44,381 bases of DNA. It comes from a virus. The notes below the pieces were generated by a model. That model made no database searches and had not been told where the DNA came from. It worked only from the letters and a program-made list of their open reading frames with translations. Made by a program: the position numbers and the translations under genes. The stretch is from positions 1 through 44,381 of IMG/VR virus record IMGVR_UViG_3300007735_000739. The stretch is one strand, 5' to 3'. Shown here in pieces: positions 3,771 through 44,381 of this stretch (positions within the stretch are counted from its first letter, which is position 1; every line of letters starts with the position of its first letter).

Positions 3771-3816
3771 ACAAGCATATATAACTCTATATTGACAAGA
3801 AACTAAAGGAATTAAA

Positions 3817-4305
3817 ATGGCAGAAACACTATCAGTAACAGATATGCTTCCTAACAAATTTGAATCTAAGCGTAAACATCGCTGGATTCTAGCAATTGAA
3901 GGTATCGATGCCTTTTTAATCAAGAAGGCAGCCCGACCTGGTTTCACAATGGGAAGCAAAGAAATTCCATGGATTAACACACAAAGATACATCTCTGGAA
4001 AGCTGAAATTTGATACAATGTCAGTAGAACTTCACGATCCTATTGCACCTGCTGGTTCACAACAGGTTATGGAATGGATTCGTACTCATCACGAATCAGT
4101 TTCTGGTAGAAGCGGTTATGCTGATTTTTACAAGCGCGATATACAATTGAAAATGCTTGATCCGATTGGAACAGTTGTCGAGTTATGGGATGTGAAAGGT
4201 GCATTAATTGAATCAGCAAAATTTGGTGATGTAGATTACGGATCAGACGATGTTTCAACAATCTCACTAACGATAAGGTTTGATAACGCAGTACTACAGT
4301 GGTGA
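3817..4305 (+). CDS. Tail tube protein (gp19-like)
   Basis: Major tail tube subunit, 162 aa, almost exactly the length of T4 gp19 (163 aa). Supporting features are the position directly after the sheath gene, the N-terminal stretch FESKRKHRWILAIEGIDAFL, the central SVELHDPIAP, and the C-terminal beta hairpin (VDYGSDDVSTISLTIRFDNA) typical of Hcp-like tube proteins. It would assemble as stacked hexamers inside the sheath. The Shine-Dalgarno AAAGGA lies about 7 bases before the ATG. A homing endonuclease gene begins 9 bases after the stop, separating the tube gene from the downstream chaperone/tape-measure block. Confidence 0.9.
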   Translation: MAETLSVTDMLPNKFESKRKHRWILAIEGIDAFLIKKAARPGFTMGSKEIPWINTQRYISGKLKFDTMSVELHDPIAPAGSQQVMEWIRTHHESVSGRSGYADFYKRDIQLKMLDPIGTVVELWDVKGALIESAKFGDVDYGSDDVSTISLTIRFDNAVLQW

Positions 4306-15477: not shown

Positions 15478-16683
15478 ATGCATATTTTTATTTCAAAAAA
15501 AGCAGCAGGTTATGATAAAGACATTCTTATTACATCAACGGGCGAAGTACAAGTTTCAAATCTTCTTGACAAAGAATATACATCAAATGCATGGCACTTC
15601 GATGAAAAGTATTATAAATCAATTCCAAATCTTTCGCAGCTCTTAGAGAAAGAAATATCACTCATTCCAAAAGATAAAAATATTGAGTGGTGGAAAAAAT
15701 ATACGAACTCGCCGAGAGTTGACATTCTTCTGGGAAAGAATGCGTTTCTTTCAAATCTGAAAGCAGTCATAGAAGATGTGAATCGTATCATTCAAATAGA
15801 TGAATCATATACAAACACGTTCTATCAAAATCAAAATCTTTTAATCGATTCTCTGCAAAATTCATTTGTAGATTATAAAGAAGTTGAACGTTTAGAAATT
15901 AAAGACCAAATTGGTGATTTGAAAGATTTTAAAACTGGAATGTGTCATGTTCCAAAGTATGACAATTGGTCTTCTTCTACTGGCAGAATGTCTATTTTAG
16001 AAGGTCCAAAAGTTTTGACGATGAATAAAAACAATCGTCATGTATTCAAGTCGTCATTTGGTGACGATGGTGCATTGATAGGTATAGACTATAAAGCGCT
16101 TGAGCCTCGCGTCCTTTTTACAATAGCAGGCAATGATGCTTCGTATGAAGATCTATATACGCATATAGCAAATGAAGCTGGAATCAATTCTATTGAAAGA
16201 GACGTCATTAAAGTGATGATACTTTCGATTTTGTACGGAATGTCAAGAAAGAATTTTGTAATGAAATTTATCGAGACACAAGATATTGATGACATATATG
16301 ATAAACTTGTATTGACACTCGGGCTTGAAAAGATAAAAGAGAATATTGCAAAAAGAAGAGAGTTTGACAACGAAAATGTAATAAAAAGTTTTTATGGTCG
16401 AACACTAAAGTGTGATAAATCATTAGAAGTAAATTATTATACACAGTCGTCGAGTGTTGATGTTGCATGCGAAGGTTTTTTGTTTTTTATAAACAACTTT
16501 TGTAGATATCATGACATAAAACCACTCTTTATTATTCACGACGAATTAGTAGTTGATGTTCATAAAGACAAATACAATCTATTAAAACAGCAAGCAAAAG
16601 AAGGTTTGCTTATTCAAAGTTTAAACACAAAATTTCCTGTAACAACAAAGGTGTTCAATGGACGCGGAAACACAAATTCTTAA
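15478..16683 (+). CDS. Short family-A DNA polymerase, 401 aa
   Basis: Template-directed DNA polymerase palm/fingers core of the Pol I family. Visible motifs: STGRMS at 167-172 (the T.TGRLS motif), motif A IDYKALEPRV at 203-212 with catalytic Asp, motif B with R241, K245, Y253 and G254 in the canonical R-x3-K-x7-YG spacing, and motif C IIHDELVVDV with HDE at 354-356. It lacks any recognisable 3'-5' exonuclease domain, and only ~165 residues precede the TGR motif, so the thumb is reduced. Full-length phage Pol A proteins are usually 550-900 aa. This phage also carries a DnaE-type polymerase, so the small enzyme may act in gap filling or repair rather than main synthesis. No Shine-Dalgarno precedes the start. 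The next gene overlaps its end by 26 bases. Confidence 0.85.
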   Translation: MHIFISKKAAGYDKDILITSTGEVQVSNLLDKEYTSNAWHFDEKYYKSIPNLSQLLEKEISLIPKDKNIEWWKKYTNSPRVDILLGKNAFLSNLKAVIEDVNRIIQIDESYTNTFYQNQNLLIDSLQNSFVDYKEVERLEIKDQIGDLKDFKTGMCHVPKYDNWSSSTGRMSILEGPKVLTMNKNNRHVFKSSFGDDGALIGIDYKALEPRVLFTIAGNDASYEDLYTHIANEAGINSIERDVIKVMILSILYGMSRKNFVMKFIETQDIDDIYDKLVLTLGLEKIKENIAKRREFDNENVIKSFYGRTLKCDKSLEVNYYTQSSSVDVACEGFLFFINNFCRYHDIKPLFIIHDELVVDVHKDKYNLLKQQAKEGLLIQSLNTKFPVTTKVFNGRGNTNS

Positions 16684-18848: not shown

Positions 18849-19550
18849 ATGGCAAAAGTAAAAACACAAAAAGACCTCGACACAGCAGTAGACTTCACTG
18901 CAGAGTTAATAACATCACTTAACAAAGAAAATGGTGCAAGAATTGCATATAATCTTGCAGTTGATGATGCTCCCAATGCTGTCAAACGTTGGATTTCAAC
19001 AGGCTCATCACAGCTTGACTATATCATTGCTAATAGACGGAATGGCGGGCTACCCGAAGGCCGAATCGTTGAAATATTTGGACCCCCATCAATTGGTAAA
19101 TCGCACATTGCAACACAAATTGCAAAATCAACCCAACAAATGGGTGGAATCTGTGTGTATATCGATACAGAAAATGCAACATCAATTGAGAATCTTCACG
19201 CGCTGGGTGTAGACATTTCTAGACGCTTTGTATACGTCGATACTCATTGCACAGAAGAAGTTTTTGATGTAGCAGAAAAAACAATTCTCAAAGCAAAAGC
19301 AATGCAAAAAGATGTTCCTATCACAATCATCTGGGACTCCGTTGCAGCAACGTCACCAAAAGATGAATTAATGGGCGATTATGATAAATCAACAATCGGT
19401 CTGCAAGCAAGAGCAATTTCAAAAGGCATGAGAAAAATCACTGGCATCATCGGTGACCAAAACGTGCTGTTTGTATGTCTAAATCAGACAAGAACAAAAA
19501 TAGGATGTGTGGGTCCTGATACGCTTGTTTCTGTTCGTAGAACATCGTAA
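18849..19550 (+). CDS. uvsX: UvsX/RecA recombinase, N-terminal fragment plus short N-intein
   Basis: Residues 1-219 are the RecA-family ATPase core: Walker A GPPSIGKS at 78-85, Walker B TIIWDS at 159-164, and the L2-leading strand FVCLNQTRTKIG. The protein then stops being RecA and continues CVGPDTLVSVRRTS before a stop codon; this begins with the intein nucleophile Cys. The missing RecA sequence restarts, after TMYGD..., in the gene at 20417. Adding the two exteins (219 + 175 aa) gives 394 aa, matching T4 UvsX (391 aa), so only trans-splicing would restore a full recombinase. Role: homologous strand exchange in recombination-dependent replication. CAGGAA precedes the start. Confidence 0.9.
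   Translation: MAKVKTQKDLDTAVDFTAELITSLNKENGARIAYNLAVDDAPNAVKRWISTGSSQLDYIIANRRNGGLPEGRIVEIFGPPSIGKSHIATQIAKSTQQMGGICVYIDTENATSIENLHALGVDISRRFVYVDTHCTEEVFDVAEKTILKAKAMQKDVPITIIWDSVAATSPKDELMGDYDKSTIGLQARAISKGMRKITGIIGDQNVLFVCLNQTRTKIGCVGPDTLVSVRRTS
19506..19547 (+). other. N-half of an atypically split intein (14 aa) in UvsX
   Basis: Codes CVGPDTLVSVRRTS, equivalent to intein block A only (nucleophilic Cys1, hydrophobic beta strand). Conventional split inteins have N-halves near 100 aa; atypically split ones with 15-40 aa N-halves are known. The complementary C-half at 20417-20839 contains block B and the C-terminal blocks, which agrees with a break directly after block A. The insertion lies between KIG and TMYG of the RecA L2 DNA-binding region. 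Confidence 0.8.
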
Positions 19551-19551
19551 T

Positions 19552-19607
19552 ATTGTTTTAATCTACATTTACAAAGATATGATTGAATCGAGGTAGATTA
19601 AAACAAT
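19552..19607 (+). promoter_or_regulatory. Perfect 15-bp hairpin occluding the endonuclease start codon
   Basis: ATTGTTTTAATCTAC (19552-19566) pairs exactly with GTAGATTAAAACAAT (19593-19607), loop of 26 bases. The right arm contains the first two bases of the endonuclease ATG (19606-19608) and the region before it, so the folded RNA would hide the start. The left arm follows the UvsX N-fragment stop at once. Hairpins that hide homing-endonuclease starts are known in T4. No T-run follows, so it is not a standard terminator. Confidence 0.65.
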
Positions 19608-20439
19608 GCCACCAGGAATTTATCCGCGCAAAGGTCATTCAATAGAAACAAGGCAAAAAATTGCAGAAGGAAATACAGGAAAAGTATTTACAGCAGAACG
19701 TCGAAAAGCAATTTCGATTGCAAATAAGAAAAAAATCGATCATGATACTATTGAAAAAATTCGTTTACTTCTTGATAAAAAAGTTTGCAATATCAATGCA
19801 GTTCTTGAAGAAGTGAAAGTTAAAGACAGTAGAGCATTGCGCCGAGTATTAAATGAAGCAAATGTTTCTATGTGCAATAGCTTGAAATTCTTTAATACAA
19901 AAGTATCATACGATACAGGAAAAAAATTGCTTGCGTATTTAAAACTTGGTCTCCATCCAAACGAAATATGTAAAAGACTTGATATTAAAAGGAAATTATT
20001 TGCTTCGCTTTCGACAAAATTGCAAATTGCACATGACTTTAAATACGACTGGACACGTAAAAAACCTGGCTGCGATGGACAATCGCAGCCAGAAAAACAA
20101 ACATGTAAAATATTAGATGAAATCGGCGTTGCTTACACAAAAGAATATCATCTTGGCAATTTTTATTTTGATATTCATATAAACGATACAAGTCTGTTGA
20201 TCGAAGTACAGGGTGATTACTGGCATGCAAATCCATTGGTTTATCAAGATAGACAAAAGTTAAATAGCGTACAAAAAAGCAATCTCAGGCGAGACAATTA
20301 TAAAAGAATATTTGCAAAACAAAACGGATTTTATACATTGTATATTTGGGAAAATGATTTAAAGAACAATGCAGATATTGTTAAAGAAACACTTAAAACT
20401 TACACAAGGAGAGCATATGAAAAAGCAGAAAATTGCTGA
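19606..20439 (+). CDS. EDxHD (Vsr-like) homing endonuclease in the uvsX break
   Basis: 277-aa predicted DNA nuclease. Residues ~10-40 form a NUMOD3-type DNA-binding repeat (GHSIETRQKIAEGNTGKVFT). The C-terminal ~100 residues match the EDxHD family related to very-short-patch repair nucleases: Glu in PEKQTCKILDEIG, Asp in FYFDIHI, the EVQGDYWHAN strand with His, Asp in LRRDNYKR, and QNGFYTLYIWEND. This family was described in phage 'fractured' genes, where it lies between split-intein halves exactly as here. Probable role: cut an uninterrupted uvsX allele to spread the inserted segment. A hairpin covers its start, and its 3' end overlaps the UvsX C-fragment start by 23 bases. Confidence 0.85.
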   Translation: MPPGIYPRKGHSIETRQKIAEGNTGKVFTAERRKAISIANKKKIDHDTIEKIRLLLDKKVCNINAVLEEVKVKDSRALRRVLNEANVSMCNSLKFFNTKVSYDTGKKLLAYLKLGLHPNEICKRLDIKRKLFASLSTKLQIAHDFKYDWTRKKPGCDGQSQPEKQTCKILDEIGVAYTKEYHLGNFYFDIHINDTSLLIEVQGDYWHANPLVYQDRQKLNSVQKSNLRRDNYKRIFAKQNGFYTLYIWENDLKNNADIVKETLKTYTRRAYEKAENC

Positions 20440-20839
20440 GTTTTTTAGCGATGTAGGATTTGATTACAAAGAAATGGAAGTAAATAAATTCTATCCAATC
20501 AATGGATGGGAAATCTTAACACATTCTAAAAATGGAAATGTTTGGAAAAATGTAACGCATATTGTTAGAAAAGAATCTTGTGTTCCCGTCGTTGTTGAAA
20601 TTTGTAATTCTAAGATATGCGTTAGTCCAGAACATCGATTCTGGGTCAAAACAGCGAGCGCAGAATCATGGATCGAGGCGATAGACCTTGTTGAAGAAAA
20701 TGATGATATATACCTTTTTCATGAAACAGCTGGATGGGTTCCTGCAACATTCACAGCAGGCGATAAAGAAATTGATATACTAGATATGTCTGTTGAAGAT
20801 GCAGAAAGCTATTATAGCAATGGCGTGCTTTCACACAAT
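20417..20839 (+). other. C-half of the UvsX split intein, 141 aa
   Basis: Contains block B (NSKICVSPEHRFWVKT, with the usual block-B His in SPEH), no embedded nuclease, block F (KEIDILDMSVEDAESYY) and block G (SNGVLSHN) ending in the canonical His-Asn before Thr+1. With the 14-aa N-half the whole intein is 155 aa, a normal mini-intein size. Because block B is on this half, the break is near the extreme N-terminus. Confidence 0.85.
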
Positions 20840-21367
20840 ACAATGTATGGCGACCCAATGACAGTCCCAGGCGGGATGGCGATACCCTTCCACGCAACAA
20901 CAAGAATAAAATTAGGTGCAGGAGCTCCAATTTTAAATGCTGCAAAAGAAACAATTGGAATCAACGTCTCTGCAAAAACAGTAAAGAATAAAGTCGGCCC
21001 GCCATTTAGAACAGCACTTTTCCAAATTCATTTTGGCAAAGGAATCTTTGAACATGAAGAAATTTTTGATGTTCTTCGTGAAGCAGGACCGCGCATCATC
21101 GGTGATGTAGAAATTTCTCTAACAGGAATGGGAGCATGGAAAGAATTGTTAGTTGTTAAAGTAGAAACAGGTGAAATTCTTGTAAGCAAAAAATTCCACA
21201 AACCTGACTTTAAAGAAATTATGACAGATCCCCAATACGAAGCATACATTCAGGATATGATTGAGAATGTCATGGTAAGAACAGGTAATTCTGTTCCAAT
21301 GACAGAAGAAGAATCACAAAACACAATCAATGAAGCAGATTATGTCGAAGGCGACATAGAGGTGTAA
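20417..21367 (+). CDS. uvsX: UvsX/RecA recombinase, C-terminal fragment preceded by C-intein
   Basis: Start chosen at ATG 20417 because a strong AAGGAG lies 6-8 bases upstream; earlier in-frame ATGs lie inside the endonuclease gene. Residues 1-141 are the C-intein, ending GVLSHN; residues 142-316 resume UvsX at TMYGDPMTVPGGMAIPFHAT, the conserved RecA segment after the L2 loop, and continue to the acidic end. Splicing would join ...RTKIG to TMYGD.... The upstream overlap with the endonuclease frame suggests coupling of expression. Threonine would serve as the +1 nucleophile. Confidence 0.9.
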   Translation: MKKQKIAEFFSDVGFDYKEMEVNKFYPINGWEILTHSKNGNVWKNVTHIVRKESCVPVVVEICNSKICVSPEHRFWVKTASAESWIEAIDLVEENDDIYLFHETAGWVPATFTAGDKEIDILDMSVEDAESYYSNGVLSHNTMYGDPMTVPGGMAIPFHATTRIKLGAGAPILNAAKETIGINVSAKTVKNKVGPPFRTALFQIHFGKGIFEHEEIFDVLREAGPRIIGDVEISLTGMGAWKELLVVKVETGEILVSKKFHKPDFKEIMTDPQYEAYIQDMIENVMVRTGNSVPMTEEESQNTINEADYVEGDIEV

Positions 21368-23726: not shown

Positions 23727-26700
23727 ATGTCGTCATTGTCTGTCAAAGAAATTGCCCTTCATGAATCTACTGAATATTTTGGTGGTGATGATTTAGCTGC
23801 AGACGTATTTATGAAATACGCCCTGCGTGATCAAAATGATAATTTATTAGAATCAACACCTGATGATATGCATCTTAGATTAGCAGAAGAATTTGCTAGA
23901 ATAGAACAAAAATATGTCAACCCAATGAGTAAAAATGAAATTTATTCATTGCTCAAAGGATTCAAAGATATTATCCCGCAAGGATCACCAATGTCAGGAG
24001 TTGGTAACGAATATCAACTACAATCATTATCGAATTGCTTCGTCATTGATTCACCTCATGATTCATATGGTGGAATTCTTTTTACAGATCAAGAACAAGT
24101 TCAAATTATGAAGCGCCGAGGCGGCGTTGGCTTTGATATTTCTACAATTCGTCCAAAAGGACAGCCAACAACAAATGCTGCTAAAACAACTGATGGAATA
24201 GGCATCTTTATGGATCGTTTTAGCAATTCAACAAGAGAAGTAGCACAAGGCGGCCGACGGGGCGCATTGCTCTTATCGATTGATTGTAAACATCCAGAAA
24301 TTGAAACGTTTATTGATATTAAAAGAAACTTAAAGAAAGTGACTGGCGCAAATATCTCAATAAAATGGTCTGATGAGTTTATGAACGCAGTTAAAAATGA
24401 TGAAGAGTTCACTCTTTGTTGGCCTGTAACATGCACTCCTACAACTGCTGAAATAACAAAAGTTGTTAGAGCTAAAGAAATTTGGTTAAAATACGTAGAT
24501 GCTGCATGGTCGTCTGCAGAGCCTGGCGCATTCTTCTGGGACAGAGTAAAGCAAAATACACCCGCAGATTTATACGCATCGTTTGGTTATGAATCAATTT
24601 CTTCCAATCCCTGCCTTGCAGGTGAGACAGAAGTTATGGTCGCAGATGGAAGAGGTTTTGTCAAAATAGAGGAGTTGGCAAATTCCGGCGCAGATGTTCC
24701 AGTGTATGCATATGATAATGAAACTGGTAAATTAGTCATTAGAAAAATGAGAAATCCACGAAAAACAGGCAATAACGTTCCTGTATACAAAGTTACAATT
24801 GAAAATGGGCATTCGTTTAAAGCAACAGGAAATCATACAATGATTTTACGAGATGATTCTCGAAAACAAGTAAAAGATTTATGCGCTGGAGATTCATTGT
24901 GGATAGCAAGCGCAGTTAATGCTCAATTCAACGAAGTGTTGCCTAATGTAAGAAATACAAAATCGCAAGATTATCGATGGATTAAGGATTGTAATTCAAA
25001 ATCATGGAAAGCTGACCATCGAATGATTTGGGAGCACCAAAACAATAAAAATCTTAACAAGAATGAAGTAATTCATCATGCAGATTTTGATGGTCTAAAT
25101 AATAACATTGACAACTTAGTATGTATGACTGCAGAGGAGCATAACAAATATCACGCAGCATTGATGAGAGGAAAAAACAATCCAATTTATAAAATTAAGT
25201 CGAATGCAAAAAGATTTGAAGAATATAGCAATGCAATGTCAAATGCAACATCTGGACTTTCAAATCCCTGTGCGTTTGACGTTGCAAATGATGTAATTCA
25301 TACGCATTTTAAAGAACTAACAAAACAAAAGAACAGAAGAATAAATCACAATGATTGGCAAGCATATGTCAAAGCTAATGAACTAGATTTCCCGTTGATG
25401 TTGAATAAATTTAGAACTTGTGGAAAAGAATTCCTGCAGTTCGCAATTGACATTGCAAACGAATTAAACATACGACACGACCTTGTTGATGTAGATTTAA
25501 GAACAGCAAAGCGTGCTATAGAAGCAGAATCTACGGGTTACAATTGGAGACTTGTAGATAAAAAGCTTTATATTGAGCGTACTTGCGAATGGTGTAACAA
25601 TACATTTGAATCTGCATATAACAAGCGAGAAATTGCATTTTGTTGTCTTAGTCACTCATTGCTCTATGCAAACAGAAAAGAAAACAAAAATCTTGCAAGA
25701 AAAATGACAATTTCAAAGATTCATAGTGACAAGGGAGAAAAAACAAGACACGAGCAAGTATCAGCGTTTACACATTTACGTTCATTGTTGATGAGGAATC
25801 CAACGAGAAAAGAATGGTCTGATTATTGCAAGAATGCAGGCATAAATGTGCGCATGTCTGGAACAAAGTACGGATTTAAATCATGGAATGACATAGCAGA
25901 AGCCGCATTGTATTATAATCACCGTGTTGTATCTGTTGAATTGATTGGAAATGAAGACGTGTATAATGGCACAGTCGATAATGACCACACATTCTGTTTT
26001 AGAGTTGGCACTGAAAAGCATGAAAAATTCAAAAATGATGTATCAATTATTCTTGCAAACGAACAATGCGGCGAGCTAGTTCTTTGCAGCTATGATTCTT
26101 GCAGACTAATGGTTGTGAACTTATTGTCATTCGTTAATAACGAATTCACATCGAATGCATCATTTGATATTTCTCGTTTTAATTCAGTTGTTATGAAAGC
26201 GCAGCGTCTTATGGATGATCTCGTTGACCTTGAAATTGAAGTTGTTGATAAAATCATACAAAAAGTAGAAAATGATCCAGAACCTGCACACGTCAAACAG
26301 ATTGAGCTAGATCTATGGAAAAAGATAAAAAATAAATGTGTGAACGGACGCCGAACAGGGCTTGGCATCACTGGTCTTGGCGATGCAATTGCTGCTCTTG
26401 GATTTAGATACGGCGATGACAATTCAATTGAGTTTACAAAAATAGCATATAAAGCACTTGCTGTTGCTGCGCATAGATCATCAATGATTTTAGCAGAAGA
26501 ACGTGGCGCATTTCCAATTTTTGATTATAATCTTGAAAGAGAACATGTGTATATGAATAAAATCATCTCAGCTTGTGATGAAAATTCTAGTGAAAGAAGC
26601 TTCGCGAGAATGTGGAAAGTTACGGGTCGAAGAAATATTGCATTAACAACAACAGCACCAGTGGGAAGTGTCAGTATTATGACACAAACAACGTCTGGTA

Positions 26701-27704
26701 TTGAACCTGCATTTTTGCTTTCATATAAACGTAGAAGAAAAATTGTTCATAATGACACTTCATCAAGAGTTGATTTTGTTGATGCGCTGGGCGATAAATG
26801 GCAAGAGTATATTGTCTATCATCAAGGATTCAAAAAATGGATGGATGTAACAGGAAAGACAGACGTCAAAGAATCACCTTACTTTGGCGGAACTGCAAAT
26901 GATATCGATTGGGTGAAAGCTGTCGATATTCAAGCAGCAGCGCAAGCATGGATTGATCACTCAATTAGCAAAACGATAAATCTTCCCAATACTGTCACAA
27001 AAGAAATTGTTAATGACGTTTATATGAGAGCGTGGGAAAGCGGTTGCAAAGGTGCGACAGTTTACAGAGACGGTTCTCGCGATGGCGTTCTTGTTTCAAC
27101 TGAAGAAAAGAAAGAAGTAAAGTTGCAAGATCAAAGTAGGATTGCTCAATCAAGACCGAAACAATTGCCTTGTGAATTGCATAGAGCAAATATTAGAAGC
27201 ACATCACCAGATGGTTCCATTATGACTGAGTCGTGGCTTGTTCTTGTCGGGTTGTTAAATGGAAAACCATATGAAGTATTTTGTGGGATGCCAGAAATGA
27301 TTGAAATTCCTAAAAAATACAAATCAGGTGTTTTAATTAAAAATGGCAAAAAAGACGGTGTGACGACATACAATTTGGAAGTTCCAGTCGGTGATGATGA
27401 AAGTCTGATATTTAAGGACGTTGTAACGCTCTTTAACAATAAAACGCAAGGATCGTTTACGAGAACAATCTCACTGGCACTCAGACATGAAGTTCCACTT
27501 CATTATATTGTTGAACAGTTGCAGAAAGATAAAAATGGAGACATGTTTTCATTTGGCAAAGTTATTGCAAGAGTGTTAAAATCTTACATTAAAGATGGAA
27601 CAAAGACATCATCTGTTAAGTGTATGCAATGTGGCAATACAGAGCTTGTTTATCAAGAGGGGTGCCTTTCTTGCAAAAATTGTGGTTGGGGTCGCTGCGG
27701 GTAG
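23727..27704 (+). CDS. nrdJ: Class II (B12-dependent) ribonucleotide reductase with an internal intein
   Basis: Reduces ribonucleotides to deoxyribonucleotides using adenosylcobalamin. After removal of a 485-aa intein the extein is 840 aa. Family signatures: NCFVIDSPHDSYGGI, RRGGVGFDISTIRPKG, NP/CGELVLCSYDSCRL around the finger-loop catalytic cysteine, TTTAPVGSVSIMTQTTSGIE, and a C-terminal cysteine cluster (CMQCGN...CLSCKNCGWGRCG) for thioredoxin-type re-reduction. The intein interrupts directly before the catalytic Cys of NPCGE, so splicing is needed for activity. AAAGGAG precedes the ATG. It starts the nucleotide-metabolism block. Confidence 0.92.
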   Translation: MSSLSVKEIALHESTEYFGGDDLAADVFMKYALRDQNDNLLESTPDDMHLRLAEEFARIEQKYVNPMSKNEIYSLLKGFKDIIPQGSPMSGVGNEYQLQSLSNCFVIDSPHDSYGGILFTDQEQVQIMKRRGGVGFDISTIRPKGQPTTNAAKTTDGIGIFMDRFSNSTREVAQGGRRGALLLSIDCKHPEIETFIDIKRNLKKVTGANISIKWSDEFMNAVKNDEEFTLCWPVTCTPTTAEITKVVRAKEIWLKYVDAAWSSAEPGAFFWDRVKQNTPADLYASFGYESISSNPCLAGETEVMVADGRGFVKIEELANSGADVPVYAYDNETGKLVIRKMRNPRKTGNNVPVYKVTIENGHSFKATGNHTMILRDDSRKQVKDLCAGDSLWIASAVNAQFNEVLPNVRNTKSQDYRWIKDCNSKSWKADHRMIWEHQNNKNLNKNEVIHHADFDGLNNNIDNLVCMTAEEHNKYHAALMRGKNNPIYKIKSNAKRFEEYSNAMSNATSGLSNPCAFDVANDVIHTHFKELTKQKNRRINHNDWQAYVKANELDFPLMLNKFRTCGKEFLQFAIDIANELNIRHDLVDVDLRTAKRAIEAESTGYNWRLVDKKLYIERTCEWCNNTFESAYNKREIAFCCLSHSLLYANRKENKNLARKMTISKIHSDKGEKTRHEQVSAFTHLRSLLMRNPTRKEWSDYCKNAGINVRMSGTKYGFKSWNDIAEAALYYNHRVVSVELIGNEDVYNGTVDNDHTFCFRVGTEKHEKFKNDVSIILANEQCGELVLCSYDSCRLMVVNLLSFVNNEFTSNASFDISRFNSVVMKAQRLMDDLVDLEIEVVDKIIQKVENDPEPAHVKQIELDLWKKIKNKCVNGRRTGLGITGLGDAIAALGFRYGDDNSIEFTKIAYKALAVAAHRSSMILAEERGAFPIFDYNLEREHVYMNKIISACDENSSERSFARMWKVTGRRNIALTTTAPVGSVSIMTQTTSGIEPAFLLSYKRRRKIVHNDTSSRVDFVDALGDKWQEYIVYHQGFKKWMDVTGKTDVKESPYFGGTANDIDWVKAVDIQAAAQAWIDHSISKTINLPNTVTKEIVNDVYMRAWESGCKGATVYRDGSRDGVLVSTEEKKEVKLQDQSRIAQSRPKQLPCELHRANIRSTSPDGSIMTESWLVLVGLLNGKPYEVFCGMPEMIEIPKKYKSGVLIKNGKKDGVTTYNLEVPVGDDESLIFKDVVTLFNNKTQGSFTRTISLALRHEVPLHYIVEQLQKDKNGDMFSFGKVIARVLKSYIKDGTKTSSVKCMQCGNTELVYQEGCLSCKNCGWGRCG
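24612..26066 (+). other. NrdJ intein with HNH endonuclease, 485 aa, C-terminal Gln
   Basis: N-terminal splicing block CLAGETEVMVADGRGFVKIEEL, block B NGHSFKATGNHTMIL. An HNH domain follows (VIHHADFDGLNNNIDNLVCM, then TAEEHNKYH), and a later CEWCNNTFE...CCLSH finger. C-terminal blocks are VELIGNEDVYNGTVDNDHTF and VSIILANEQ. The last two residues are Glu-Gln rather than His-Asn, followed by Cys+1 of the extein. Terminal Gln is a known minority variant among inteins. This is the only intein in the window retained in cis with its nuclease inside. Confidence 0.88.
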
Positions 27705-38411: not shown

Positions 38412-38831
38412 ATGAGATTCTTAATTATTGATGACAGTCCTGGTCGGTATGATACATTTACAAGAATGCTTGATAGAGAAAAGATCAAGTGGGTAATGTC
38501 ATGCGATCCTCAAATTGTTGACATACTATTTGAATATGCTGGCACTGATGGACAAATTGATGGCATTTTGCTTGATCATGATATGCCGTATAAAGACGGC
38601 AGAGAATGGGCAAAATGGATTGAAGCTAATATTGTAGATGTTCCTGTCGTCGTTACTTCAACGACAGGACTGCCGAATGTTCGTGAAGAAATGATTAAAA
38701 CATTAAAAGAAGCAAAAATTCCCGCATATCTTTGTCCAGCCGACCATATCAATTGTGAAATTGAGTGGCTTGCATGGTTGAAAGGCGCAATCGAAACACT
38801 TAACAAGGATTCTATCGATACAAATGAGTAA
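38412..38831 (+). CDS. Receiver-like (CheY-fold) protein, 139 aa
   Basis: N-terminus MRFLIIDDSPGRYDTF provides the DD acidic pair, GILLDHDMPYKDG the phosphoacceptor-type Asp (LLDHDMP), and VVVTSTTGLPNVREEM the Thr/Ser of the receiver switch. The Lys of the classical receiver is not certain. Stand-alone phage receiver-like proteins are thought to belong to a cyclic-phosphate or signalling branch of the receiver family. It overlaps the dnaE N-fragment start by 8 bases, implying coupled expression with the polymerase. Confidence 0.7.
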   Translation: MRFLIIDDSPGRYDTFTRMLDREKIKWVMSCDPQIVDILFEYAGTDGQIDGILLDHDMPYKDGREWAKWIEANIVDVPVVVTSTTGLPNVREEMIKTLKEAKIPAYLCPADHINCEIEWLAWLKGAIETLNKDSIDTNE

Positions 38832-39738
38832 TATTATTCGTCCTCCAAAGAAATTCGTCGGCCTTCACGCGCACTCAGGATTCTCAAACTCAGATGGCTT
38901 GGGATATCCTGCACAACATATTGATTTTGTTATAAAAAATGGAATGGATGCATGGACATTGACAGATCATGGCAACGGATCTGGCCTTGCACATGCACAT
39001 TCTGCTGCAAAAAAGATGCAGAAACAGGGTATTAATTATCGACAACTTAACGGAGTTGAATTTTATTTTGTTCCTTCGCTTAAAGAATGGCGTGTGCAAT
39101 ACGAGCAACATAGAGAAGAAGTTGCGATAGCAAAATCAGAAAAGAAAGCAAAAGAAGCAACAGACATTGATGCAGATACAGATGCAGAATCTGCAGGTCA
39201 TGTTGTTGAGAATGAAGAAGAAACAAAATCGATGAGTCCAATTTCCATCAATGATGAATGGAAACGAAGGTATCATCTTGTTGTAATTGCAAAAAATGCA
39301 GTGGGCCTTGCAAATTTGTTTACGCTTGTTAAACGCTCATTTACAGACGGTTATTACAAATTCCCAAGAATTGATTTTGACTTACTTAAAGAATACGGTG
39401 AGGGTCTCATTGTAAGTTCTGCGTGTTTGTCTGGCGATTCAATGTTAATTACAGATGTTGGTAACGAATCATTGAGAAACCTTGTTGAGAGATATAAAAA
39501 TGGTGAAAGAACACAAGTGCTTTCATTCAATGAAAATACAAAAGCAAAAGAAATGAAAAATGTAATGTGGGGTGATGTTACAAGAAAAAATGCGAAATTA
39601 ATGAAAATTACGACATCTGATAATCGTGTTTTAAAACTAACACATGACCACAAAGTGCTGACTGACAAGGGGTGGCTTCGAGCAGATGAATTAAGTAAAA
39701 ATATGCCACTTAAAATAATGTCGCTATTAGAGAAGTGA
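38824..39738 (+). CDS. dnaE: DNA polymerase III alpha, N-terminal fragment with N-intein 1
   Basis: Residues 1-200 are the PHP domain of a family C polymerase: VGLHAHSGFSNSDG metal-binding His, WTLTDHGNGSGLAHAHSAAK, and LIVSSA preceding the conserved Cys. At residue 201 the intein begins (CLSGDSMLIT) and runs 104 residues to the stop. The next extein residue is Cys of CVGGIYASK in the gene at 40732. Expression overlaps the receiver gene. Replication polymerase role is inferred from homology; activity requires two trans-splicing events (see below). Confidence 0.9.
   Translation: MSNIIRPPKKFVGLHAHSGFSNSDGLGYPAQHIDFVIKNGMDAWTLTDHGNGSGLAHAHSAAKKMQKQGINYRQLNGVEFYFVPSLKEWRVQYEQHREEVAIAKSEKKAKEATDIDADTDAESAGHVVENEEETKSMSPISINDEWKRRYHLVVIAKNAVGLANLFTLVKRSFTDGYYKFPRIDFDLLKEYGEGLIVSSACLSGDSMLITDVGNESLRNLVERYKNGERTQVLSFNENTKAKEMKNVMWGDVTRKNAKLMKITTSDNRVLKLTHDHKVLTDKGWLRADELSKNMPLKIMSLLEK
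39424..39735 (+). other. N-half of split intein 1 in DnaE, 104 aa
   Basis: Block A CLSGDSMLITDVGNESLRNL with nucleophile Cys, block B DNRVLKLTHDHKVLTDKGW containing the T-H-D-H pattern, then ELSKNMPLKIMSLLEK at the stop. Size and break point match conventionally split inteins (N ~100 aa, C ~40 aa). Partner half at 40732-40854. Confidence 0.9.
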
Positions 39739-39743
39739 GTTTT

Positions 39744-40730
39744 ATGATGAAACAGCTAAGTAGAAATAAGAAAATAGAAGATATATTTATTCAAAATTTG
39801 AATGCATGGAAAACAAATAGCGAAATTGTTTCGATGTATAACGCGGGAATTTCACCACTACAAGTAATTCAATTGTGGCTGTTTGAAACTAAAAACAATA
39901 TTCGATATGCGGTTATTGAACACAATAGTGAGAAAATACTTCCATTCAAGTTAATGAAAATTTCTGTGTTTGCGACTAGACTAAAAAAGTACATACAATA
40001 CACAAACGAGCAACGTAAAAAATTCCTTAGTCAATGTCAAGAAATGAAAATAAAATACAAGCATCTTGATAAGTCAGATGAAGAAATAACACAGCTAGTA
40101 AAAAAACAACTAGGCGTGTGGGCAAATAATGCGCATAATAAACGCAAAGAAAAACAATTTTACAGTTACGACAATAAGCCAGAGTACTGGATGACAAAGC
40201 TAAATATTTCTTACGATGATGCGCTTGCAAAAGTTACATTGCATAAAAAAGAAAAATCACCATTTGCTGTCGAACACTGGATTAAGAAAGGTTATAAACT
40301 TGAAGATGCTGTTGAAATCATAAGAAAAAACGCAGCAAAGGGCGGAATTAATGCAACAAAAAAATGTGAATCGATATGCACATCATCACTCGAAAGAGAC
40401 ATTTACAATGAAATAATAAAAATATACCCTGACGCTATTTTGCAATTTTCTATTAATGATGTTTATGTTTATGACATTTGCGTTGTACAAACTAAAAAAA
40501 TAATAGAAATAAATGGAACATATTGGCATGCAGATAAAAGAGTCTATGACGACAATGCTACTGTATATGGCAAAAACGTAGCACAAATTCATGCAGCAGA
40601 CGAAAAGAAGCGAGGTTATGCAATAAAAAATGGATATGAAGTCTTAACAATTTGGGAACTTGATATTAGAAACGAAAGACAAAAAACACTAAGCAAATCA
40701 ATAGAATTTCTTTCAAACGGGCAAAAATAA
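39744..40730 (+). CDS. EDxHD (Vsr-like) homing endonuclease in dnaE break 1
   Basis: About 328 aa. Starts available are GTG 39735 and ATG 39744/39747; AGAAG at 39731-39735 best fits 39744. The N-terminal ~200 residues are basic and repetitive, probably DNA-binding. The C-terminal ~110 residues carry the EDxHD nuclease: Glu in LERDIYNEIIKIY, Asp in VYVYDICVV, IIEINGTYWHAD with His, Asp in HAADEKKRGYA, and KNGYEVLTIWELD. The same family sits in the uvsX break, and the two share the GYEVLTIWE-type end, but their N-terminal domains differ. Probable role: homing into uninterrupted dnaE. It sits between the N-half and C-half of a split intein. Confidence 0.85.
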   Translation: MMKQLSRNKKIEDIFIQNLNAWKTNSEIVSMYNAGISPLQVIQLWLFETKNNIRYAVIEHNSEKILPFKLMKISVFATRLKKYIQYTNEQRKKFLSQCQEMKIKYKHLDKSDEEITQLVKKQLGVWANNAHNKRKEKQFYSYDNKPEYWMTKLNISYDDALAKVTLHKKEKSPFAVEHWIKKGYKLEDAVEIIRKNAAKGGINATKKCESICTSSLERDIYNEIIKIYPDAILQFSINDVYVYDICVVQTKKIIEINGTYWHADKRVYDDNATVYGKNVAQIHAADEKKRGYAIKNGYEVLTIWELDIRNERQKTLSKSIEFLSNGQK

Positions 40731-40731
40731 A

Positions 40732-40854
40732 ATGAATTCATGCAATTTTGTTGATCTTCTAGCGATAGAAGAGTTAGATGAATATGAAGATGTGTTTGAT
40801 ATAACGGTCGAAGATAATCATAACTTTTTTGCAAATGAACTTGTAGTACATAAT
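40732..40854 (+). other. C-half of split intein 1 in DnaE, 41 aa
   Basis: MNSCNFVDLLAIEELDEYED then VFDITVEDNHNFFANELVVHN: block F (DVFDITVEDNHNFFAN) and block G (ELVVHN) with penultimate His and terminal Asn, followed by Cys+1 of the polymerase. Confidence 0.9.
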
Positions 40855-41988
40855 TGCGTCGGCGGAATTTATGCCTCAAAAGTAATTAGAGGAATGGCAC
40901 TAAATAAATCAGACGCTGAGATTCAATCAGAATTAAAGAATCTTACAGACAGATTTGTTGATGCAGTTGGACTTGAAAATTTTAATCTTGAATTGCAATT
41001 TAATAAATTACAAATTCAACATGACACAAATCGTCATTTGTTAATGCATGCAAAAAGTGACAACTTAAATCTTGTTGCAACATGCGATTCTCATTATCCA
41101 ACACCTGATAAGTGGCAGGCACGAGAATTGTATAAACGAATGGCATGGATGAATGATAAAACACAAGTCAAAGCATTGCCAACATTTGAAGAATTAAAAT
41201 GTGAATTGTATCCAAAAAATGCAGAGCAAATGTGGGACGAGTATCTAAAAAACAAGCCCGCAAATCCTTTTTATGAAGGAAATGATGAAATAATTCGCGA
41301 TGCAATTGAAAGAACACATGACATTGCATGGCAACAATGTGACGATGTTTGGATTGATACAAAAGCAAAACTTCCAAACTTTGACAATAGCGAAAAAAGC
41401 GGTTTCGTACAACTCGTTGACATTGTAAAAGAAAGAATGACAGCAATGGGTCTTGACCAGAAGCAAGAATACGTCGAAAGAGTTCAATATGAGCTTGCAG
41501 ATATCAAATATCTTGGGCATGCATCATACTTCTTGACAATGTACAAGATCTTTCACAAAGCATCAGAAAAAACACTCTTCGGCCCGGGTCGTGGTTCTGC
41601 ACCCGGATCACTTGTTAATTACATTCTTGGAATTACACAAATCGATCCTTTGCCATACGGATTACTTTGGAATAGATTTTTAGGTCGGCATAGATGTTTG
41701 CAAGAAGACATTTTTGTTTTGACAGCACGCGGAAGCAAACAGCTCAAAGAGATAAAAGTCAATGACAGCGTCATTTCTCCAGCAGGAGGAATTAACAAAG
41801 TAATTGACAAAGAGACAGACACTAATCACGTAATAAAAGCAACAATAAAAGTGAATAATCAAAATTTTGCATGTTCACCAAATCATAGATGGATTATCAA
41901 ACGAGACAATAAAATAATTGAAATTTTAACAACTGATATTACAAAAGGCGACAAGCTCTTACTAAAGAAGGCACACAATAATGAGTAA
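40732..41988 (+). CDS. dnaE: DNA polymerase III alpha, middle fragment flanked by two intein halves
   Basis: 418 aa in three parts. 1-41 is the C-half of intein 1 ending VVHN. 42-321 is 280 aa of polymerase starting CVGGIYASKVIRG and containing VATCDSHYPTPDKWQARELY and, before the break, FGPGRGSAPGSLVNYILGIT then LWNRFLGRHR, the palm segment just before the catalytic aspartates. 322-418 is the N-half of intein 2. Such a double-tailed fragment must splice at both ends to be incorporated. Overlaps the downstream nuclease gene by 8 bases. Confidence 0.92.
   Translation: MNSCNFVDLLAIEELDEYEDVFDITVEDNHNFFANELVVHNCVGGIYASKVIRGMALNKSDAEIQSELKNLTDRFVDAVGLENFNLELQFNKLQIQHDTNRHLLMHAKSDNLNLVATCDSHYPTPDKWQARELYKRMAWMNDKTQVKALPTFEELKCELYPKNAEQMWDEYLKNKPANPFYEGNDEIIRDAIERTHDIAWQQCDDVWIDTKAKLPNFDNSEKSGFVQLVDIVKERMTAMGLDQKQEYVERVQYELADIKYLGHASYFLTMYKIFHKASEKTLFGPGRGSAPGSLVNYILGITQIDPLPYGLLWNRFLGRHRCLQEDIFVLTARGSKQLKEIKVNDSVISPAGGINKVIDKETDTNHVIKATIKVNNQNFACSPNHRWIIKRDNKIIEILTTDITKGDKLLLKKAHNNE
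41695..41985 (+). other. N-half of split intein 2 in DnaE, 97 aa
   Basis: Block A CLQEDIFVLTARGSKQLKEI, block B KVNNQNFACSPNHRWIIKRD with the S-P-N-H pattern, and a hydrophilic end TTDITKGDKLLLKKAHNNE at the stop. It interrupts the extein after GRHR, just before TSWPDIDSD that holds the catalytic acidic residues. Its sequence is clearly different from intein 1. Confidence 0.9.
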
Positions 41989-42559
41989 CATGACGTACAA
42001 AGAAGTATATGATTTGCAGATTTCGTCATTTAAGAGTAACAAGAAATTAAGTATAAGTAATGATGAAAGATTTAATCACTTTAATGTGAAATCTGGAAAG
42101 TTTGCAGAAAATCTTGTAAAAGAAATAATAGGAGAAAATTATATTACTACTGGCATTTGTATTCAAAGAAATACAAAGGGTAACCGCGGAAAAAATTTGA
42201 AATATATGCCAGACGGTTATATTAAAGACATCGACATATACACAGAAGTCAAAAATTTGGATCTTGGTAACGGTTCAGGAACTGCAATTGAAAAACTGTT
42301 ATATATGTTCAGAAAAATAGAAGAATACGACAAACCTGTATTAATCATTTTTTGCGGAAAACATGAATTGTTAATTGATGAAGTCTCGCATGAGATATAC
42401 AGTGCATATCATTTTAATGCTGGATCAAAAATTGTTAATGCTGTTATTAATGAAGTAAGAGAAAAAATTGTCGATATTGTGAAAGTTTCAGAGCTTAATA
42501 ATGAAAAACTCTTATCATACAAAGAAAAGCTTCGTGCAAGCAAATATAATTTAACATGA
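41981..42559 (+). CDS. Predicted PD-(D/E)XK nuclease in dnaE break 2 (restriction-enzyme-like)
   Basis: 192 aa. The pattern fits a type II restriction-endonuclease core: helix GKFAENLVKEII with an acidic residue, KYMPDGYIKDIDIYTEVKN giving PD...E-x-K, and GNGSGTAIEKLLYMFRKIEE, a 'GTA.EKL' helix seen in several restriction enzymes. A hydrophobic strand KPVLIIFCGK follows. It shows no EDxHD, HNH, LAGLIDADG or GIY-YIG motif. The gene starts inside the stop of the DnaE middle fragment and its stop overlaps the methyltransferase start by 4 bases (ATGA 42556-42559), the close coupling usual for R-M gene pairs. Alternatives: an unusual homing endonuclease. Specificity unknown. Confidence 0.65.
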   Translation: MSNMTYKEVYDLQISSFKSNKKLSISNDERFNHFNVKSGKFAENLVKEIIGENYITTGICIQRNTKGNRGKNLKYMPDGYIKDIDIYTEVKNLDLGNGSGTAIEKLLYMFRKIEEYDKPVLIIFCGKHELLIDEVSHEIYSAYHFNAGSKIVNAVINEVREKIVDIVKVSELNNEKLLSYKEKLRASKYNLT

Positions 42560-43398
42560 ATAGAACAATATTAAAGTATGCTGGCAACAAAAGCAGAGTG
42601 ATGAGTCAAATTAACAAGTTTTTTGACTGGGAGGATGTAGGCACATACATAGAGCCATTTTGTGGTGCAATGGGAAGTGTAATTAACGCAAACATACCTG
42701 AAAATGTAGACATAATACTTGCAGATGCAAATGTTGAAATAATTGATTTTTATAAAACAATAAAAGACTACGCATATGAAGTCGAGCAGCTAGCAAATAG
42801 CTGGTCATCAGATGAAAAAACATATTTAGAAATAAGATCTTGGGATAGAGCGCTGAATTGGAGAAAAAGCAAGTCTCAAATTGAGATAGCAGCAAGAACG
42901 ATCTATCTGAATCAGCGTTGTTTCAACGGGCTTTTTAGAATAAATAAATATGGATTTTTCACAACACCGTGGAATCATAGAGAAAATGCACCAAAAATAG
43001 AAATAACAAAAAAAACATACCAAATTGACATTATAAAACGATGTAATATGAAAGCATGCGACTGGCGAGAATTATTGTCTCATGATAAAAAAAATGCATT
43101 AATATATGCAGATCCGCCATACATTGACATCAAATCGCCAGAATCTAATTTCGGTGGTTATATAGGAAACTTTAGTCTGACAGATCAGACTAATTTAGCT
43201 GAACAGCTGCTTCTCAAATCAAAAAATGGTTCAAAAGTTATTGTTTCAAATTCTTGGTGCAATGAATCAATTGATATTTACAAGAATTTTGGATTTAATA
43301 TTCATCAAGTATTTGCAAATAGAATGTTAAGTGCAGATAACAAATCTCGTGGTAAAACAACTGAATTATTAGCTACATTAAACTGTAGATGTGAGTAA
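42556..43398 (+). CDS. Dam-type (D12) N6-adenine DNA methyltransferase
   Basis: 280 aa with the alpha-group amino-methyltransferase motifs: KYAGNKSR near the N-terminus (FxGxK-type SAM contact), TYIEPFCGAMGSV (motif I, EPFxGxGS), YLNQRCFNGLFRINKYGFFT (Y.N..CFNGL.R.N..G.FN) and YADPPYID (motif IV, DPPY). The family includes Dam, DpnM and EcoRV methylases, so GATC or a related sequence is likely but not shown. It ends 1 base before the ATG of the third DnaE fragment. In this position it would protect phage DNA from the neighbouring nuclease. Confidence 0.88.
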   Translation: MNRTILKYAGNKSRVMSQINKFFDWEDVGTYIEPFCGAMGSVINANIPENVDIILADANVEIIDFYKTIKDYAYEVEQLANSWSSDEKTYLEIRSWDRALNWRKSKSQIEIAARTIYLNQRCFNGLFRINKYGFFTTPWNHRENAPKIEITKKTYQIDIIKRCNMKACDWRELLSHDKKNALIYADPPYIDIKSPESNFGGYIGNFSLTDQTNLAEQLLLKSKNGSKVIVSNSWCNESIDIYKNFGFNIHQVFANRMLSADNKSRGKTTELLATLNCRCE

Positions 43399-43399
43399 A

Positions 43400-43567
43400 A
43401 TGAAATCACTAAACGAACATGACATTAATGTTTCTGATTATGATGAAATTGAAATCGAATCAATTGAGTATAGCTTTTGTGATCAAAAACTTGTTGATAT
43501 AGAAGTTGAAAACGACCACTTATATCATGTATCGCAAGATAATAGTCAATTTGTAATTACACATAAC
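43400..43567 (+). other. C-half of split intein 2 in DnaE, 56 aa
   Basis: MKSLNEHDINVSDYDEIEIE and CDQKLVDIEVENDHLYHVSQ then DNSQFVITHN; block F DIEVENDHLYHV, block G ITHN with canonical His-Asn, followed by Thr+1. The Thr rather than Cys +1 distinguishes this intein from intein 1. Confidence 0.9.
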
Positions 43568-44381
43568 ACAAGTTGGCCGGACATTGACAGCGATGCTGGT
43601 GATCGTGATGAACTGATTCGTGCAGCACAAGAATTATTTGGCAATGATGCCGTTATTCCTGTTTCTAACTTTAATACTTTGAAATTAAAGTCGCTTGTTA
43701 AAGATGCATCAAAGTTTTTTGATGTTCCATTTGAAGAAGTTAATGCAATTACTAATACGCTTCAAGAAGAAGTAATGCCCTTAGCAAGAGATGAAGATCA
43801 AGAAAAATCTGTATTCGTTTTGAAACACGATGATTGCATGAAATATTCACCGGGATATCGTGCGTTTATGGAAAAATATCCCGATGTTGAAAGAAACATT
43901 AACGCACTTTTTATGGAAAATCGTTCAATAGGAAGACACGCAGGTGGTGTCTTAGTTGCAGATCCTGTTACGTTAGAAAAGACAATGCCTATTATTGCAG
44001 CACGCGGCGAAATTCAGACGCCGTGGACAGAGGGCATGAACTTTAGAAACTTGGAAGATAATGGATTTTTGAAGTTTGACTTCTTGGGCTTGACATTGTT
44101 AAAAGACGTAGAGAATTGTATTAGAAGAATTCTAATTACACAAGGAACGAAGCAACCAAAATTCGCAGATATCAAAGAATTTTTTGATAAAAATCTTAAT
44201 TGCAGATTTGTTAAGCAAGATGACCAAAAAGTTTGGAAACATGTTTATCATGAAGGCAGATTCACATCAGTTTTCCAGTTCACTGCAGATGGTGCACGTA
44301 AATTCTGTCTTGAAGCGAAACCTGACTCAATTGATGAGCTTGCAGCATTAACTGCAATTTATCGTCCCGGGCCGCTTAAAG
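43400..44381 (+). CDS. dnaE: DNA polymerase III alpha, C-terminal fragment with C-intein 2 (runs off window)
   Basis: Open from ATG 43400 to the window end. Residues 1-56 are the C-half of intein 2 ending ITHN; then polymerase resumes TSWPDIDSDAGDRDELIRAA, with the PD.D.D catalytic motif, RSIGRHAGGVLVADPVTLEK, LKFDFLGLTLLKDV and the start of a further region ending AALTAIYRPGPLK. Residues after 57 match DnaE palm/fingers. GAGTAAA lies just before the ATG but no strong Shine-Dalgarno is seen; it may be coupled to the methyltransferase stop. The C-terminus lies beyond the window. Confidence 0.9.
   Translation, partial: MKSLNEHDINVSDYDEIEIESIEYSFCDQKLVDIEVENDHLYHVSQDNSQFVITHNTSWPDIDSDAGDRDELIRAAQELFGNDAVIPVSNFNTLKLKSLVKDASKFFDVPFEEVNAITNTLQEEVMPLARDEDQEKSVFVLKHDDCMKYSPGYRAFMEKYPDVERNINALFMENRSIGRHAGGVLVADPVTLEKTMPIIAARGEIQTPWTEGMNFRNLEDNGFLKFDFLGLTLLKDVENCIRRILITQGTKQPKFADIKEFFDKNLNCRFVKQDDQKVWKHVYHEGRFTSVFQFTADGARKFCLEAKPDSIDELAALTAIYRPGPLK

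Follow-up and report, generated by a model that had tools for sequence, protein, structure and literature searches.

How a phage could obtain one continuous replicative polymerase from a gene that is interrupted twice, with other genes lodged in the gaps, is the question raised by the dnaE locus of IMG/VR record IMGVR_UViG_3300007735_000739. The window, meaning the whole stretch analyzed here, is this single virus record of 44,381 bases; its source is an uncultured tailed phage whose genes also encode a tail-sheath protein, a DnaB-like helicase, a RecA/UvsX recombinase, a ribonucleotide reductase and ThyX, and its right end lies inside dnaE. The DnaE polymerase is coded by at least three open reading frames (ORFs) at 38824-44381, with cargo in between. 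Our reading, to which we assign a probability of about 0.9, is that the gene is broken by two split inteins with cargo and that its three chains would be trans-spliced into one polymerase.

The polymerase segments, on the plus strand like the features between them, can be delimited precisely. Extein 1 (38824..39423, 200 aa) carries the N-terminal PHP domain (profile match 1.3e-25) and ends in ...VSSA; extein 2 (40855..41694, 280 aa) runs from CVGG to GRHR; and extein 3 (43568..44381, at least 271 aa) opens with TSWPDIDSD and is cut by the contig end. DNA polymerase III alpha profiles match all three pieces, and Pfam Intein_splicing matches pieces 1 and 2. Relatives were fetched from viral contigs using exteins 2 and 3 plus the intein halves as queries. 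In intact polymerases among them, for example L002-L005 and L017, the three exteins are contiguous to the base; joined, the window exteins give 751 residues matching residues 4-752 of an intact 1190-residue relative. An automatic junction map of 91 polymerase loci places the window inserts exactly after reference residues 201 and 481, and the catalytic PDIDSD motif begins three residues past the second junction. An earlier note on this DNA had given coordinates, extein lengths and the position of the two breaks, one in the PHP domain and one immediately ahead of PD.D.D; the ORFs, profiles and intact relatives agree with it on each count. It had also spoken of three pieces: three ORFs are indeed present, but three is a minimum, since dnaE runs off the contig at reference residue 752 of 1190. 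Sites 787 and 869, which hold split inteins in relatives, fall outside the sequenced part of the gene. Directly upstream, a response-regulator receiver domain protein (38412-38831) overlaps the dnaE start.

The insert after residue 201 has the organization of a class 1 split intein. Its N half (IN1; 39424..39735, 104 aa, stop at 39736-39738) begins with Cys1, contains block B as THDH and matches TIGR01445 at 9.8e-13, with homologues at the same site in L034, L097 and L105. The C half (IC1; 40732..40854, 41 aa) has its own ATG and a block F, matches TIGR01443 (1.8e-07) and Pfam Intein_splicing, and ends in VVHN followed by Cys+1, the nucleophile that the earlier note had assigned at the SSA/CVGG junction. 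The halves lie on separate ORFs, as do those of the second intein. The nearest solved structure to IN1 is the NrdJ-1 intein (2.8e-09), a sequence match that suggests a Hint fold. Between the halves lies cargo 1 (39744..40730, about 328 aa), a freestanding ORF starting at ATG 39744 or 39747 in a frame open from GTG 39735. Its Vsr match is weak (9.1e-04); it matches phage families at 5.5e-08 and 8.2e-06, the latter family being named endonuclease, and it groups with cargo from further insertions, located at sites 201, 601 and 787. These matches and the grouping make a Vsr/EDxHD-type homing endonuclease acting at site 201 the probable identity of cargo 1, in keeping with the EDxHD cargo proposed earlier.

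The insert after residue 481 shows the same class 1 features with a different cargo. Its N half (IN2; 41695..41985, 97 aa, stop at 41986-41988) has Cys1 and CSPNH as block B, with a profile match to the gp41-1 intein (5.4e-05); its C half (IC2; 43391..43567, 56-59 aa from GTG 43391 or ATG 43400) contains DIEVENDH and ends in VITHN, followed by the Thr+1 noted earlier. Both halves are supported by alignment with seven same-site homologues, and Cys1, SPNH, THN and Thr+1 are invariant in the eight site-481 homologues. An AF2 model of a contiguous homologue (L008, 141 aa), for which 10 N halves and 10 C halves of split forms served as alignment rows, reached a pLDDT of 93, and among solved structures it best matches the gp41-1 intein (TM 0.79/0.88). 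By way of this modelled homologue, intein 2 is assigned a predicted Hint fold.

Cargo 2 comprises two ORFs. Cargo 2b (42556..43398, 280 aa) is a Dam-type (D12) N6-adenine DNA methyltransferase, with a TIGR00571 match of 5.9e-48, above cut-off, and further matches in Pfam (1.3e-33) and to a PADLOC type II methyltransferase (1.9e-50). Isolated phages hold matches of only about 32%, and viral and genome contigs yielded no relatives close enough to reveal neighbors. Cargo 2a (41981..42559, 192 aa) is an orphan, with no relatives in Pfam, NCBIfam, PADLOC, PDB, phages, plasmids, or viral or genome contigs, and a single weak 25-residue endonuclease match in PHROGs (0.0043). A stretch of 26 residues containing YMPDGYIKDIDIYTEVK aligns with PD...ELK, a motif of the endonuclease that is commonly found at site 481 (5.6% probability), so that YMPDGY...YTEVK may be a PD-(D/E)XK nuclease motif. 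A single-sequence fold of cargo 2a was too poor for use (pLDDT 43). The nuclease-methylase cargo of the earlier note is thus firm as to the methylase; that cargo 2a is a PD-(D/E)XK nuclease, or that the two ORFs form a restriction-modification pair, is a guess from the motif.

With these parts, the assembly of the polymerase can be proposed as follows. Split inteins, each with a genetic cassette between its halves, would have entered dnaE at two sites, so that overlapping or closely spaced ORFs would yield three chains: P1 (extein 1 and IN1), P2 (IC1, extein 2 and IN2) and P3 (IC2 and extein 3). P2 would need two splices, as the earlier note had argued for a middle piece with intein parts at both ends, and the ORF layout and motifs support this. 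IN1 would pair with IC1 and IN2 with IC2, each pair folding as a Hint domain and following the class 1 route of Cys1 acyl shift, transesterification to Cys+1 or Thr+1, and Asn cyclization. The expected product is one continuous DnaE with the junctions SSA|CVGG and GRHR|TSWP. The cassettes would act, or would once have acted, as mobile cargo, presumably through homing; at site 481, the orphan ORF and Dam-type methylase would have replaced the zinc-ribbon/PD-(D/E)XK-like endonuclease usual there.

The strongest new evidence that such splicing is real comes from the residue after each insertion point, which co-varies with intein presence among relatives. At site 481, all 14 occupied alleles have a nucleophilic +1 residue (Thr in 13, Ser in 1), whereas only 38 of the 76 empty alleles do (Thr 38, Val 34, Ala 4). 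Within the window's own clade (support 99 in a quick tree), Val stands at this position in 7 of 7 intein-free alleles and Thr in the window and L007. At site 601, Cys follows the insertion in both occupied alleles, and Ile, Val or Leu occupies the position in 88 of 88 empty ones. A nucleophile in place of a non-splicing residue wherever an intein sits is what would be expected if splicing were needed, and the pattern therefore argues for real splicing.

This covariation bears directly on the possibility that the inteins have decayed, leaving either a non-covalent three-chain polymerase or a non-working DnaE in a phage replicated by another enzyme. A candidate for the latter exists in the window, where a short PolA-like polymerase (401 aa) is encoded at 15478-16683. 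Nonetheless, both inteins retain Cys1, the block B His, the terminal His-Asn and the +1 nucleophile; the tracking of the +1 residue with intein presence is expected only with splicing under selection; and the catalytic aspartates are three residues away from junction 2. We regard decay as very improbable. Less credible still is an assembly artefact, in which the gene would only look broken because of stops or chimeric joins in a metagenome contig. The evidence is a single contig that ends inside the gene, yet 29 in-frame stops separate P1 from P2 and 40 separate P2 from P3, which excludes a single base error; complete cargo ORFs lie between the pieces, and the same sites hold split inteins in independent metagenomes (both sites in L097; one or other in L034, L105, L006, L010, L078 and others). 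Assembly error was rejected on the stops and this recurrence. Reading the inserts as RNA introns was set aside, without an Rfam scan, on the intein blocks at the exact ends of both.

Trans-splicing remains the preferred account, and it must also explain how two pairs of halves would be kept apart. The earlier note had called the two inteins unrelated, which does not hold: with halves 24% and 33% identical, they are distant members of one superfamily, both class 1 Hint inteins of different subfamilies. Several observations weigh against our reading. The net charges have the same polarity in both inteins (N halves +5 and +4, C halves -11 and -12), so charge capture alone would not separate the pairs, and there is room for P1-P3 mis-pairing that skips extein 2. 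IC2 scores 13.5 against a TIGR01443 cut-off of 15.6 (0.066), just under it, with the family alignment supporting its identification; the +1 contrast at site 481 (Fisher p = 2e-4) is a figure uncorrected for kinship; and the occupied alleles at site 601 number only two. The shared polarity, together with the class 1 chemistry from Cys1 common to both inteins, would fit pairs that are not orthogonal and a phage that tolerates some mis-spliced P1-P3 product. We consider this unlikely, if less so than the preceding alternatives: the halves are of low identity, the +1 residues differ (Cys and Thr), and the nearest characterized relatives, NrdJ-1 and gp41-1, have been combined by others as orthogonal inteins (PMC7090010). 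By analogy with that use, and from the low identity and different +1 residues, the two window pairs are likely orthogonal; the earlier note, in speaking of a natural orthogonal split-intein pair, put this too firmly.

The arrangement recurs among relatives, a pattern out of reach of the earlier note. Intein inserts occur at seven reference sites (201, 448, 481, 488, 601, 787 and 869) and are present in 23 of the 91 polymerase loci, window included, a sample biased by some loci having been fetched with intein queries; in the extein-3 search, 14 of 80 loci carry one. Seven or eight contigs besides the window have two or three split inteins in this gene, in the combinations 448+481 (L007, L096), 481+869 (L028/L029, L095), 481+601 (L100) and, in L097, 201+481+601, that is, both window sites plus a third. 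L015 has inserts at 488+787+869, the one at 488 being unusual and less certain. The clearest case is L097 (3130-10016), where four ORFs (305, 416, 259 and 635 aa) together encode the whole DnaE polymerase and two of the three breaks hold Vsr-like cargo. A polymerase predicted to be made in several trans-spliced pieces, up to four of them, is thus recurrent in this phage clade. On the polymerase tree, at least 11 state changes are counted for site 481, 7 for site 869 and 4 for site 201, and such a patchy distribution with repeated changes is as expected for mobile elements. Automatic junctions were corrected by reading the ends at site 201 of L034, L097 and L105 (5 residues early; STA|C...VHN|C) and at site 601 of L097 (13 residues early; NRS|C...ISN|C). 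Nine loci have an in-frame insert of 243 bases near reference 1052; as it lacks intein ends, it was dropped as an intein candidate. The L015 insert at reference 488 (2562-4156) combines a 188-aa N part, in which a block-F-like stretch is already present, with a C part of just some 20 aa, and would be an unusual split or a decayed intein. Ser1 split inteins with a terminal Ser-Asn instead of His-Asn were observed at DnaE FNK|SHS in L015, L022, L029, L032, L033, L072, L090 and L095, a site that we take to lie three residues from the cyanobacterial DnaE split intein position.

Site 481 offers the fullest series of states. Its intein is contiguous in L008, split without cargo in L007, L097 and L098, split by a zinc-ribbon/PD-(D/E)XK-like endonuclease in L006, L010, L028/29, L078, L095 and L102, split by a 3.7-kb insert in L063, and split by the orphan ORF and Dam-type methylase in the window. 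Two near-identical sister phages differ in this respect: the intein of L008 (9581-10003) is contiguous and that of L010 (2899-4275) is interrupted by an endonuclease cassette of 0.95 kb, with 12 differences in the first 340 aligned bases and then divergence exactly where the L010 cargo sits. Because L008 nests among split forms on the tree, cargo loss with re-fusion in L008 is the simpler reading. Because contiguous, split-empty and split-with-cargo forms occur at one site, how intein splitting arises and is reversed can be tested directly. The wider proposition, that this phage lineage builds its polymerase from up to four chains through up to three mutually non-reacting split inteins, that intein states switch, and that one intein exchanged its endonuclease for a restriction-modification-like pair, seems to us evenly balanced between true and false.

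Inteins were also observed in other genes of the window. The RecA/UvsX recombinase (18849-21367) is likewise interrupted by a split intein, whose split is atypical, consisting of an N half of only 14 aa (CVGPDTLVSVRRTS; 19506-19547) and a C half of 141 aa (20417-20839) that ends in ...LSHN with Thr+1; a Vsr-like cargo ORF (19606-20439) lies between them. This N half falls one residue short of the 15 aa of the PolB16 N half, which has been called record-short (PMC13014065). The B12-dependent ribonucleotide reductase NrdJ (23727-27704) carries a contiguous intein with an HNH domain at about residues 296-766, which apparently ends in ...NEQ|C, with Gln for the terminal Asn.

Among known systems, the closest are the fractured genes reportedly described by Dassa et al. 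in 2009, in which a split intein interrupts a phage DNA-metabolism gene and a freestanding endonuclease gene, often Vsr-related, lies between the intein halves. The window dnaE is a variant of this arrangement, being a conserved DNA-metabolism gene cut exactly at intein junctions, with cargo between the halves and empty sites in relatives. It differs in being broken twice by different split inteins (three times in L097) and in a cargo that includes a Dam-type methylase. What is new is that a single gene holds different split inteins, two or three of them, by which middle chains come to carry intein halves at both ends; no description of a natural gene broken by multiple split inteins was found in the literature searched, which did not itself cover Dassa et al. 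2009. Cyanobacterial dnaE genes (Ssp/Npu DnaE split intein; Trichodesmium) likewise rely on a split intein in DnaE and trans-splicing, but they have a single split, which places the parts in distant genes and has no cargo, and the further inteins of Trichodesmium are contiguous. The window differs in insertion sites and intein families: sites 201 and 481 are not the cyanobacterial site (...|CFNKSHS), and the FNK|SHS region (869) lies beyond the contig end. The intein 2 family resembles gp41-1 in fold and intein 1 resembles NrdJ-1 in sequence, both being class 1 with the typical split point; to our knowledge, gp41-1 and NrdJ-1 sit singly in their host genes. Those two were joined by engineering (PMC7090010), whereas the window dnaE holds two such inteins naturally. 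In Pseudomonas phage MIJ3, one split intein, with an HNH endonuclease gene between its halves, also interrupts a replicative polymerase (PMC6892783), the difference being one break in PolB as against at least two in DnaE. Haloarchaeal mcm and polB harbor multiple contiguous inteins in one gene (PMC10643990) and share with the phage dnaE the presence of several mobile, patchily distributed inteins in a replication gene and the need for +1 co-conversion; splicing there is in cis from one chain, as opposed to the trans-splicing among three or four chains proposed here. The several site combinations offer sets ready for testing how split inteins that occur together are kept from cross-reacting, and where engineers join three or more protein segments with hand-picked orthogonal split inteins, nature seems to do so in an essential enzyme, repeatedly.

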